Assembly (NCBI GenBank): GCA_023053545.1 | Contig: JAKZAN010000006.1 | Coordinates: forward strand, 11,787,412-11,851,411 | Direction: 5' to 3' | DNA from: Lepidurus packardi | Lineage: Eukaryota > Arthropoda > Branchiopoda > Notostraca > Triopsidae | Length of the DNA: 64,000 bases | Part shown: piece by piece, positions 11,368-58,639 of the stretch | Position numbering within the stretch: position 1 is the stretch's first letter | Layout of the letters: every line of letters starts with the position of its first letter | Made by a program: the position numbers and the translations under genes | Notes under the pieces: generated by a model | Told to the model about the DNA's origin: nothing | Databases searched by the model: none | What the model saw: only the letters and a program-made list of their open reading frames with translations

Positions 11368-13269
11368 TTACGGATTTTGATGCTGCATCTGAGCTTGCAT
11401 CTGGGACAGCATTTGTTGCATGCGACGTAACTCGGCTTCTTTTTCCAATAACATGCGATCTTTTTCCGAACCAGGCGTTTCTGCATTAGAATTAGCTCCA
11501 CTCACCCTACAGAAAGTAGTGTCATAGCAACCAAAAGATTTGAGAGCTGAAATTACGTTTTTCTATTGCTGACGCCTTTAGCGAGTCTTTCCGAGCGATA
11601 ATTCTCGTAATGAACGTCCTGGGTGACTTCTTGCAAATCTTGCATGTGCGTACTGGAATAATAGTGTTTTTTAAAGAAAATAAAACTTATATCAGGACTG
11701 AGACCAATATTACATGAGCATCGTCCTGAGTTTGATAAAATCGCAATGTTCGGGGTTTTCCACTTCCACGACACCCCAAGGGTACTGACGCCCACGAACT
11801 TTCTTTCCACGCACTTCTAGGAGCGTATTTGCCCCACACACTGCAAACGGAACGGCTTCTTTTAGCTGTCTAACCTATGATGGATTAAAAACGCGTTTAA
11901 ACAGAAAACAGATGAGCTAACGGACGCACTTGCTCTTTGTAATCTTCATCTTCGTCGCTGTCACAATCCGCAATGGAGTAAATACGGATTCCGTTCGCAT
12001 GAACTTCTTCCAGGATCTTTAAAACAAAATTACAAAATTAAACTAGAAACTCAACAAATGAGAAAATTGACAATACACGTTGTTTGAGCCGGGTCACTTC
12101 TTTCTTGGTAAGCATATCAGCCTTGGCAATGACCGGTACAATGTTGACTTTATGATGGAGCATTTTCATGAACTGAATATCCAAGGGCTTCAGCCTACGA
12201 CAATCAGATAATCAAAACCGTTAGAGGTAAGCAAGGCGGAAGAAAACAGTAAATTCAAATAAAATACCCGTGACCGTAAGGTGCGATAAAATAGAAACAG
12301 CAGTGAACGCGATTGTCAATAATGTTTCGGCGGTTTAGTCCGCTTTCATCTCTTAAGTAGCGCTCAAACTGGTCGTCAATGTACTGGATTATGGACTTGA
12401 AGCTAGGACCAAAGAAAAAAAAACAAGTAACATAATTAGCAGCTAGAGTAAACTTGACTAGATGTACCAGTCCGTGTTGTCAATTGCGTCGCCGTAACCC
12501 GGCGTGTCGACAACCGTAAGGCGTAATTTTACGCCACGCTCTTCAATTTCCACAGTGGATGCGTCCAATTTGACGGTCTGCTTAATACGGTCTAGACAAT
12601 ACATTCGGAAAGTAATTAAAACATGAATAAGTGAGTTTACAGTATATAGTTTTACCTGATACGCTGGGAATGACTCGCTCAGGATACAGATCGGTCAGGA
12701 AAAGGCTGTTGACCAGGGTAGATTTGCCCAAACCGGTTTCACCTGTTCAGAAATTAACAAATGTTTATAATGTAAAAAAAAAGAAAGAAAATCCAGTACG
12801 ACTTATAATGGCATAGAAATAACAGACAAAGAGAACGATGGTTACAAGGTAATATAAACGGAGAAAAAAGAAGCGCCCAACGTGGGGCTCGAACCCACGA
12901 CCCTGAGATTAAGAGTCTCATGCTCTACCGACTGAGCTAGCCAGGCTTACGTTTCCTTTTGGTTAATGGCTAAAATGAGGAACGGGGCTTACCTACAACC
13001 ATCAGAGTAAATTCAAAGCCCTTTTTTACGGACTTTCGGTGCACTTGGTTCGGCAAATTTGCAAATCCAACATAACCGGGCATTTCAGGGTTTGTGAACT
13101 ACAAAATTCATATCGCGTTAGTTTCAATTTCAAAAAAGGAAATCGATCATCGATGGGCATGGGCTTCAGAACTCAGAAGTTGTGCCAACGCCTTAAAATT
13201 ATTTCTGGTATTCTAAGAAAAATGTCCGAATCTTACGTTATTTCCGCTTTTGACTGATTCTTGAGACAT
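11368..13269 (-). CDS. SEPTIN2: Septin, SEPTIN2 group
   Basis: GTP-binding protein that assembles into septin filaments at the cell cortex and cleavage furrow. Ten exons: 13237-13269, 12993-13098, 12656-12742, 12468-12591, 12268-12402, 12077-12194, 11930-12016, 11714-11874, 11557-11652, 11368-11506; 361 residues. Seen: P-loop GETGLGKST, switch motif DTPGYGDAI, base-recognition AKAD, septin unique element [19 protein letters not shown], and a C-terminal coiled coil [20 protein letters not shown]. It starts MSQESVKSG then [18 protein letters not shown], the start of the SEPTIN1/2/4/5 group (fly Sep1). A tRNA-Lys gene sits in the second intron. It is divergent from ALKBH4, 238 bp apart. Confidence 0.95.
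12874..12946 (-). tRNA. tRNA-Lys (CTT anticodon)
   Basis: A 73-nt cloverleaf read on the minus strand. Acceptor GCCTGGC pairs with GTTGGGC; D arm GCTCAGTCGGTAGAGC; anticodon loop with CTT in ACTCTTAAT; T arm GGGTTCGAGCCCC. It lies in the septin intron between 12742 and 12993, in the same direction as the host gene. Confidence 0.95.
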
Positions 13270-13507: not shown

Positions 13508-15776
13508 ATGGCAGGAACAGACAGGCCATGTGGATGTAAATCATTTCGCTCCTGTCTGTGGTGTGAGAAGAAATATGAAATACAACCAACTGGTCCTTAT
13601 AAAGAAACATACAAGGTGCGAAATATTTCGCCTAAATTAAACTTGACTATTCTAATTGTACTGTTGCAGTTCACTTACTGACTCCGTTTAATTCAACTCT
13701 TTCCTTAGGATTTCCCCGCTTTCGTTTATTGTATTAAATGTGCGAAAGCTTACCATGGTTGGAATGAAGCTGACAATTCACATCCAAATCACACAGGAGA
13801 ACCCATTCTTTATCCTGGAATTCTCATACTTGTACTTATACATAATTAGTTTAGAATAGAAAATAATGTTCTATGTTTTCAAGGAAAATTTTTTAAGCAG
13901 AGAAGAAGCGGCTTCTTACACGGAACAGTTTGATAAACTAGAGTGGGAATCGTCACAGAGCGGTCGAAGGAAACAGGTTCTGACGTCATACTTATTTAAA
14001 ATAAGCATCGATGGTTCAGTGGTAGAATGCTCGCCTGCCACGCGGGCGGCCCGGGTTCGATTCCCGGTCGATGCACTTTTTTCTATAGCGTAAAATTTTT
14101 TTACATTTTTTAATTGCAAACTTTACAAACGTCAAAACTAGTTTGTGTTAATTTCAAAAGGATTTGCGCGGCATTAGACTTTTGAGCATCGATGGTTCAG
14201 TGGTAGAATGCTCGCCTGCCACGCGGGCGGCCCGGGTTCGATTCCCGGTCGATGCAATTTTTTGAAATTTCTTAGCGTTACATTTTCCTTCAATTCTATA
14301 ATTGCAAACGTCACAAATGGCAAACTGTATGTGTTAATTTCAAAACCACTTGCGTGGGATTAGACATTCAAGCATCGATGGTTCAGTGGTAGAATGCTCG
14401 CCTGCCACGCGGGCGGCCCGGGTTCGATTCCCGGTCGATGCACATTTTTCTATAGTGGGAAATTTTTTAATTGCGAACTTTACAAACGTCAAAACTAGTT
14501 TGTTAATTTCAAAAGCACTTGCGTGGGATTAGACATTCAAGCATCGATGGTTCAGTGGTAGAATGCTCGCCTGCCACGCGGGCGGCCCGGGTTCGATTCC
14601 CGGTCGATGCACATTTTTTCTATAGTGTGAAATTTTTTTAAATTTTTTAATTGCAAACTTTACAAACGTCAAAACTAGTTTGTGCTAATTTCAAAAGCAC
14701 TTGCGTGGGATTAGACATTCAAGCATCGATGGTTCAGTGGTAGAATGCTCGCCTGCCACGCGGGCGGCCCGGGTTCGATTCCCGGTCGATGCAATTTTTT
14801 CAAATTTCTTAGCGTTACATTTTTCTTTCAATTCTGTAATTGCAAACGTCACAAATGGCAAGCTGTATGTGTTAATTTCAAAACCACTTGCGTGCCATTA
14901 GACATTCAAGCATCGATGGTTCAGTGGTAGAATGCTCGCCTGCCACGCGGGCGGCCCGGGTTCGATTCCCGGTCGATGCATTTTTTTCAAATTTCTTGGC
15001 GTTAAATTTTTCTTCAAGTTTGTAATTGCAAACGTCACAATGGCAAGCTGTATGTGTTAATTTCAAAAGCACTTGCGTGCCATTAGACATTCAAGCATCG
15101 ATGGTTCAGTGGTAGAATGCTCGCCTGCCACGCGGGCGGCCCGGGTTCGATTCCCGGTCGATGCAATTTTTTTCCATTTCATGTTCTTTCTGTCCGTTAT
15201 TGTCATGGTTTCCTTTTTATTTAGAATTTTGGACCAAAAGCGAATTTTAAAAAGAAAAAGCTGCGCGTTGGCAATTTCAGTGGTTTTCCCCAATTCACTC
15301 AGCCTTTGTACGAGAAACTGGCTAAAGTCGACCTGTTGGAAGATTATGTCACTGTCGAGCAATGTAGTCTTGAGTACGACCCAGCACGCGGGGCTTCTAT
15401 TGAACCTCACATTGATGATTGCTGGATTTGGGGCGAGAGAGTAGTCACCGTTAATCTCAAAGGCTATTCTGTCCTAACCATGACCAATTACTCCGGAACT
15501 GCTGCCAAGTACAACCTCGAAGACGCCAAACAAATCGGTTTCGACGTTCACCCAAACCTAGAAAACGTCGTCGTGCGTTTGCCCATGCCAGCCGGTTCTT
15601 TAATGATCATACACGGAGAAGCTCGCTACAATTGGGAGCATTCAGTCCTAAGAGAAGACGTCCAAGAACGCCGGGTTTGCATAGCGTTACGAGAATTAAC
15701 ACCGCCCTATTTGGAAGGGGGCAAATTGTATACAGAAGGCCAAGAGGTTCTAAATACAGCTAAACAGTTCTTCTAA
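13508..15776 (+). CDS. ALKBH4: ALKBH4, 2-oxoglutarate/Fe(II)-dependent dioxygenase
   Basis: AlkB-family demethylase; in mammals ALKBH4 demethylates actin and other substrates. Exons: 13508-13615, 13709-13831, 13884-13976, 15225-15776; 291 residues. The N-terminus has the ALKBH4-specific cysteine-rich start PCGCKSFRSCLWCEKK. NFLSREEA and SQSGRRKQ follow, then FGPKANFKKKKL. The iron-binding HxD lies in IEPHIDDCWIWGE, the distal histidine in YNWEHSVL, and the 2-oxoglutarate arginine region in RRVCIALREL. The 1,248-bp third intron carries seven tRNA-Gly genes. The donor of exon 3 (CAG then GTTCTG) is non-standard at +3, but the protein join RRKQ/NFGPK fits the family. Confidence 0.93.
14005..14075 (+). 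tRNA. tRNA-Gly (GCC), copy 1 of 7
   Basis: 71 nt. Acceptor GCATCGA pairs with TCGATGC; anticodon GCC in CTGCCAC; T arm CGGGTTCGATTCCCG; a T-run terminator follows. Inside ALKBH4 intron 3, sense to the host. All seven copies read identically over 71 nt. Confidence 0.96.
14186..14256 (+). tRNA. tRNA-Gly (GCC), copy 2 of 7
   Basis: Identical 71-nt gene; start is 181 bp after copy 1. Followed by a type B spacer (ATTTTTTGAAATTTC...). Confidence 0.96.
14372..14442 (+). tRNA. tRNA-Gly (GCC), copy 3 of 7
   Basis: Identical 71-nt gene; start is 186 bp after copy 2. Preceded by the shared upstream string ACTTGCGTGGGATTAGACAT. Confidence 0.96.
14541..14611 (+). tRNA. tRNA-Gly (GCC), copy 4 of 7
   Basis: Identical 71-nt gene; start is 169 bp after copy 3. 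Followed by a type A spacer (CATTTTTTCTATAGTG...). Confidence 0.96.
14723..14793 (+). tRNA. tRNA-Gly (GCC), copy 5 of 7
   Basis: Identical 71-nt gene; start is 182 bp after copy 4. Followed by a type B spacer. Confidence 0.96.
14910..14980 (+). tRNA. tRNA-Gly (GCC), copy 6 of 7
   Basis: Identical 71-nt gene; start is 187 bp after copy 5. Followed by a type B spacer. Confidence 0.96.
15095..15165 (+). tRNA. tRNA-Gly (GCC), copy 7 of 7
   Basis: Identical 71-nt gene; start is 185 bp after copy 6. The last unit; unique intron sequence follows before the ALKBH4 acceptor at 15223-15224. Confidence 0.96.
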
Positions 15777-57545: not shown

Positions 57546-58392
57546 CGCCACTACACAATCGGCTCCCACCGCAGTCAGACAAGGACTCTGTCAGAAAAAT
57601 ACACAATAAAAGAGTCCAAAAATTAAGTTCTGCAAGGGTTTGCATTCAACGTTCAATTTTCGTTTCAAAAAACTCCTTTTCGCGTAAAGGCACAAGAGAG
57701 CCAAAGAAAGATATATCTACCAGACGGGTTTTTCCTTGAATTCTTTTCTACTGGGGCAGCGTCTCCGGAGCAAGCTAAAGTTAGCTTGGGACGCGAACTA
57801 GGCGGATCGAGCAAGCAAATTCGACTGTATAGTCGTGGTGGGCAGTGAGCCAAAGACGGCAAACAGAGACCCAAGACACATATACACGTACGGACACGGT
57901 ATTTGGGTACCACACACAAAATGTAGAAGAAAAACAAAAGGGAAAAAAAGTTGCACTGTTTTAACCCAAAAGATTGGTAAATAACTTTTGTCAGCCTTTT
58001 AGGTAAAAAATTGTTGGCAGCCGTTCAGGTTTATAAGGGACGGGGGAATTATCCGCAAAGTAGTCACAGATAAGTCTCGCATGATTACAAGAGAGATTGG
58101 GGAGGGTCCAGAGTAGCTCTTACCACACTCGCACACACTTGACTCGCGATTACTGGCTAAGACTGTCAGGTGAGGAAAGCGAGAGAACAGAGAAGGGAAA
58201 GAGAAGAGGAGGAGCGAAGAAAGAGAAAGAGAGGGAAAAAAATAGAATCCGATAGTGAATTTTGAATGGCCCAAAGAGAAGCGTCGGACGCCGAGGAGAA
58301 ACTGATGGGACGAGCTTGGAGAAGGTTAAAAATACTTGGTGGGCCCCGCAGCGGCGTCGGCGGCATATATATATACATATATATATACGGCA

Positions 58393-58639
<247 letters not shown>

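Follow-up and report, generated by a model that had tools for sequence, protein, structure and literature searches.

The closest described counterparts of the locus presented here come from animals and a plant. For instance, 44% of the 609 tRNA genes of Caenorhabditis elegans are intronic, 56% of these are oriented like their host, and an intronic tRNA gene can be restricted by the promoter of the host, as stated in the passages cited from this study (Sagi et al. 2016, PMC4999229). Moreover, tRNA genes of the same isoacceptor that are not more than 1,000 nt apart have been defined as homogeneous tDNA clusters; the cited sections report that drosophilids mostly have homogeneous pairs and that some animals possess clusters of fifty or more genes (Bermudez-Santana et al. 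2010, PMC2888827). In Arabidopsis, nine tRNA-Pro genes are located antisense to AtNUDT22 (Lukoszek et al. 2013, cited in PMC5358760). The passages cited on the mammalian Polr3e gene describe a MIR element in intron 1, which is transcribed by Pol III and interferes in antisense orientation (Yeganeh et al. 2017, PMC5358760). Here, we describe an array of tRNA-Gly(GCC) genes in an intron of an ALKBH4-like gene of Lepidurus packardi, located in a stretch of 64,000 nucleotides that was analysed as a whole and is referred to as the window. A literature search, whose coverage mostly left out subscription journals, retrieved neither a title nor an abstract on a tRNA array in an ALKBH4 intron.

The coding part of the host gene extends from position 13508 to 15776 of the plus strand and consists of four exons (13508-13615, 13709-13831, 13884-13976 and 15225-15776, the stop codon included), which are separated by GT-AG introns and yield a product of 291 amino acids. 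This product aligns with the PDB chain 8hb2, a solved structure annotated as 'DNA N6-methyl adenine demethylase', at an E value of 1.1e-44. A Pfam search with the same product returned only the 2OG-Fe(II) oxygenase family, below the cut-off (21.4 versus 31.2 bits). The name ALKBH4 is taken from the 8hb2 alignment and from the known human protein, and judged by its predicted product the host is presumably an ALKBH4 orthologue. The residues on both sides of the junction between exons 3 and 4 (SQSGRRKQ/NFGPKANFK) align without a gap to SKSGRRKQDYGPKVNFK of 8hb2, which supports the GT-AG intron 3 at 13977..15224, in agreement to the nucleotide with the coordinates and the length of 1,248 nt given in the preliminary description of this DNA. 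Judged by the in-frame junction and the solved homologue, every tRNA gene of the array is predicted to lie entirely within this intron of a single protein-coding gene. The first 28 nt of the intron precede the array of 1,161 nt, and another 59 nt lead up to the AG. Thus, the array accounts for 93% of the intron, in agreement with the earlier statement that nearly all of it is tRNA array, while the tRNA genes proper make up 40%. The remaining 87 nt are comparable with the other introns of the host (93 and 52 nt). The usual consensus of a 5' splice site is GTRAGT. The 5' splice site of intron 3 (CAG/GTTCTG) matches it poorly, and efficient removal of the intron is therefore an assumption.

ARAGORN detected seven tRNA-Gly(GCC) genes between positions 14005 and 15165, all on the plus strand and thus sense to the host, and the Rfam model RF00005 (gathering score 29) recovered the same genes, each one scoring 66.6 bits. 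According to the Rfam coordinates, which ARAGORN extends by one base at three genes, they are located at 14005..14075 (28 nt past the 5' splice site), 14186..14256, 14372..14442, 14541..14611, 14723..14793, 14910..14980 and 15095..15165. The genes, 71 nt in length, are identical letter for letter, as the preliminary description had claimed together with their sense orientation. Each of them folds above the gathering score of Rfam with a GCC anticodon, contains the A box TGGTTCAGTGG and the B box GGTTCGATTCC and is followed by a terminator of five to seven T residues starting at position 1-3 past the gene end. Tandem Repeats Finder describes the array as 6.4 copies with a period of 187 and a score of 1604.

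The six spacers have lengths of 98-116 nt, and no two of them are alike (5 to 33 substitutions plus gaps between any two). Pairwise comparison separates them into two families: family A comprises spacers 1 (14076..14185), 3 (14443..14540) and 4 (14612..14722) with identities of 88-95%, family B comprises spacers 2 (14257..14371), 5 (14794..14909) and 6 (14981..15094) with 89-95%, and the identity between the families is 69-76%. The order A-B-A-A-B-B noticed previously is thus reproduced. That all spacers differ argues against a simple duplication during assembly, and is still compatible with a collapse of further identical units. A tree of the six spacers together with the first spacer of a second array, located in a MYPT-like gene (see below), separates family A from family B; in 200 bootstraps, B was recovered in 98%, B plus the MYPT-like spacer in 76%, spacers 2 and 5 in 74% and spacers 3 and 4 in 54%. 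The four-gamete test failed for 24 of the 210 pairs formed by 21 informative columns, and 17 of these failures hinge on one single column. The failures may reflect exchange between units or repeated mutation and are modest evidence. It had been proposed that the amplification involved a block of two units and later single-unit events, or that gene conversion keeps the genes equal. The tree and the four-gamete test support a tandem amplification of gene-plus-spacer units that underwent some exchange. A two-unit block may have been involved: spacers 2 and 5 pair as it predicts (74%), but spacers 1 and 4 remain unpaired, with spacer 4 joining spacer 3 instead (54%). The role assigned to gene conversion has to be weakened. 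Since 15 of the 18 copies found in the genome are identical, including copies at unlinked loci, conversion within the array is not needed for explaining the identity, and the idea of conversion as a necessary cause was dropped.

The genomic context was explored by searching the 71-mer against the genome from which the window is derived (108.6 Mb in 344 contigs; all match counts are lower bounds). The search yielded at least 34 matches, among which at least 18 are full-length tRNA-Gly(GCC) genes with an identity of 94-100%, 15 of them at 100%. Of the other 16 matches, 12 belong to the tRNA-Asp type, and part of these were run through ARAGORN; the remaining ones are two tRNA-Gly(TCC) genes, one tRNA-Gly(CCC) gene and a 49-nt fragment for which ARAGORN made no call. 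Besides the seven genes in the ALKBH4 intron, three tRNA-Gly(GCC) genes are located on the minus strand of the same contig (C5, 12.01 Mb), about 208 kb away from the array, in sense orientation in the intron of a MYPT-like gene. Six genes form a tandem array at 12.248 Mb of contig C1, one gene lies in sense orientation in an intron of an AKAP7-like gene (C3, 2.349 Mb) and a single gene is located at 5.896 Mb of C1. Thus, 11 of the 18 genes are intronic and sense, and six are apparently intergenic. The array on C1 is flanked by coding regions on the minus and on the plus strand and appears to be intergenic, although it may lie in introns of untranslated regions. Decayed copies (94-97%) occur once at the MYPT-like locus and twice on C1. 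The exact 71-mer was absent from a genome-contig and from a viral-contig collection (0 and 0 matches), which is uninformative for a eukaryotic gene.

The MYPT-like locus (C5:12008849-12011919) harbours three tRNA-Gly(GCC) genes, one of which has diverged (94%). They reside in a GT-AG intron of 972 nt that connects in-frame exons, and Pfam identified ankyrin repeats in exons upstream; the host was assigned as MYPT/PPP1R12-like by eye. The 112-nt spacer between genes 1 and 2 of this locus matches all six spacers of the ALKBH4 array in register, with identities of 65-73% over 79-118 columns and E values of 9e-6 to 1e-9; over the whole alignment, the identity to each ALKBH4 spacer is 60-65%. Among the 13 flanks compared, which were derived from the MYPT-like locus, the C1 array and the single C1 gene but not from the AKAP7-like locus, no other flank matched an ALKBH4 spacer at an E value of 0.01. 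Eight of the 13 were subjected to dinucleotide shuffling. The best local score of the MYPT-like spacer (31) was equalled by none of 500 shuffles, whereas 34-473 of 500 shuffles were as good for the seven other flanks. At the 13 columns separating family A from family B, the MYPT-like spacer is A-like three times, B-like four times and neither of the two six times. Furthermore, the 32 nt upstream of the second MYPT-like gene agree with the ALKBH4 upstream ends at 25 of 32 positions, which was reached in none of 2000 mononucleotide shuffles. Weak matches, equalled by 4-17 of 2000 mononucleotide shuffles, were also observed upstream of the first MYPT-like gene and of genes 2-4 of the C1 array (16-17 of 32 positions). 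These weak matches indicate that the similarity close to the gene starts may partly be due to general composition, a functional bias or a shared motif. The AKAP7-like flanks gave a weak upstream match, too (14 of 32 positions, reached by 108 of 2000 shuffles). A search of the whole genome with one B spacer recovered the six ALKBH4 spacers only; the MYPT-like spacer was missed, and such a search is therefore insensitive at 65% identity. Because the homology of the spacers is in register, we read the two intronic arrays as probable descendants of a common ancestral gene-plus-spacer unit. The spacer homology between the two introns, as suggested by these alignments, is a new observation.

Other introns of the genome also contain tRNA genes. 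The AKAP7-like intron (locus C3:2347917-2350987) has a length of only 135 nt and accommodates a lone 71-nt tRNA-Gly(GCC) gene 25 nt past the 5' splice site. The joined exons of this host match PF10469 with an E value of 5.3e-36 and the downstream exon alone with 1.2e-6, while the upstream exon alone gave no match. In the window itself, a tRNA-Lys(CTT) gene (12874-12946, minus strand) lies roughly 1 kb away from the array in ALKBH4. It is sense to a septin gene and occupies an intron of 250 nt (12743-12992), where it follows the 5' splice site at a distance of 46 nt. The exon following this tRNA gene matches PF00735 just under the cut-off (E value of 1.6e-5) and a further exon with 4.6e-16; the short exon preceding the tRNA gene matches nothing alone and was assigned by in-frame joining. 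Moreover, two tandemly duplicated PRC1-like genes (C5:5.574-5.581 Mb) carry three tRNA-Asp(GTC) genes each, in sense orientation and in one intron, which is apparently the same in both copies. In the copy at 5.574 Mb, one exon matches PF03999 (E value of 9.4e-11), and the exons adjoining the tRNA intron were assigned by eye. This intronic array seems to have been copied together with its host. Host assignments at 31 tRNA loci were made by eye from segments scored by hexamers; by the same approach, tRNA loci in a laminin gene and in a Golgi cysteine-rich gene look antisense, with Pfam support for the host on one side only.

A few side observations were made in the window and in the assembly. 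The window contains a run of about 136 copies of the dinucleotide AT (58365-58637). Stop-free reading frames of the COX1 family, 450-742 amino acids in length, are present on contigs C43, C52 and C214, suggesting that the assembly includes bacterial contigs. Several top tRNA matches are also located on small contigs, and the list of tRNA matches is maybe mixed. COX1-like stretches occur on C1, C2, C4, C5, C6, C21 and C38, most of them with in-frame TGA codons, and nuclear copies of mitochondrial DNA appear to be frequent in this genome. One nuclear copy of the mitochondrial COX1 gene is readable with the invertebrate mitochondrial code, with stops being present, and resembles the COX1 of crustaceans.

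The array is best explained by an expansion of ordinary Pol III tRNA-Gly(GCC) genes to a homogeneous tandem array of seven in a normal short intron of ALKBH4, and we hold this explanation with considerable confidence. A gene-plus-spacer unit would have been copied between the ALKBH4 and the MYPT-like introns, or both introns would have received it from a third place. Unequal exchange could then have generated the seven copies and the mixture of A and B spacers. Selection on the tRNA together with ectopic conversion may keep the genes identical; concerted evolution with ectopic conversion is given as a source of tRNA identity in the cited part of an earlier report (PMC4981973). Each gene would be transcribed separately by Pol III and contribute to the general supply of tRNA-Gly, while Pol II would traverse intron 3 and splicing would excise the array, with a small net effect on ALKBH4. 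Most likely, the host tolerates the tRNA genes. Intact genes and spacers that differ throughout led us to reject a SINE, a pseudogene and an assembly artefact as candidates. It is extremely improbable that the copies arose by assembly duplication or are functionless tRNA-derived repeats. The copy number does rest on the assembly, and one MYPT-like and two C1 copies have decayed, but the identity of seven intact genes separated by spacers as divergent as those described above, and the occurrence of identical genes with different flanks at unlinked loci, speak against both.

An effect of the array on splicing or elongation of ALKBH4, as the preliminary description had suggested, is possible. That the array regulates its host, with the Pol III machinery on the seven genes slowing down Pol II or disturbing the splicing of intron 3 and thereby linking tRNA demand to the output of ALKBH4, nevertheless seems unlikely to us. 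Seven Pol III units are crowded into one intron, the first one lying 28 nt past a poor 5' splice site, and antisense Pol III units can hinder Pol II elongation according to the cited passages on Polr3e; however, these passages also report that the effect was not measurable for the sense orientation in a reporter (PMC5358760), and the genes in the ALKBH4 intron are sense throughout. In C. elegans, the expression of hosts and intronic tRNA genes is linked, but in the reverse direction, from the host promoter to the tRNA, and same-strand intronic tRNA genes show less Pol III occupancy than opposite-strand ones, as far as the cited sections go (PMC4999229). The presence of comparable sense tRNA genes in introns of unrelated hosts in this genome rather points to tolerance. 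If a coupling between host and array were shown, seven of the 18 detected tRNA-Gly(GCC) genes would come under a single host gene. In engineered tRNA-gRNA arrays, tRNA-Gly units are used. Similar to tRNA-gRNA arrays on one transcript, as described in the cited part of another study (PMC10218229), the ALKBH4 pre-mRNA could fold into cloverleaves that RNase P and RNase Z excise, so that tRNA-Gly would be made by Pol II and the intron would be destroyed or diverted. The sense orientation and the intactness of all seven genes agree with this reading. However, Pol II is dispensable since each unit possesses promoter motifs and a terminator for Pol III, and some other tRNA loci of the genome look antisense to a host by eye; we regard such processing as very unlikely. 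It is likewise very unlikely that the ALKBH4 intron is a natural polycistronic tRNA-Gly precursor in which the release of the array by RNase P and RNase Z competes with splicing, so that the tRNA-Gly output and the ALKBH4 mRNA are coupled, and that such sense units spread between the ALKBH4 and the MYPT-like introns owing to the permissiveness of introns.

Seen as an ordinary Pol III array in a tolerant host, the locus resembles the known systems and differs from them in several respects. Like the intronic tRNA genes of C. elegans, the genes are intact, identical in sequence and located in an intron of a protein-coding gene; however, multi-copy arrays that fill an intron are not described in the cited passages on the nematode (PMC4999229), and the array presented here is known from its sequence. 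With spacers of 98-116 nt and a single isoacceptor, it falls within the definition of homogeneous tDNA clusters, of which the cited sections do not treat an intronic location (PMC2888827). The array shares with the tRNA-Pro genes at AtNUDT22 that multiple copies overlap one Pol II gene, but the latter are antisense, belong to a plant and have been measured for expression, while the seven genes in ALKBH4 are sense. It also shares with the Polr3e MIR the intronic location of Pol III units within a Pol II gene, but a single antisense SINE is found there according to the cited passages (PMC5358760). Thus, the genomic context and the known animal cases make the array ordinary in kind. The locus provides a compact natural case for measuring whether Pol III genes disturb the surrounding Pol II gene, and the unit common to two introns would illustrate how tRNA genes move from an intron of one gene into that of another. 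Homogeneous tRNA clusters and intronic tRNA genes are each known, and the ALKBH4 array combines both.
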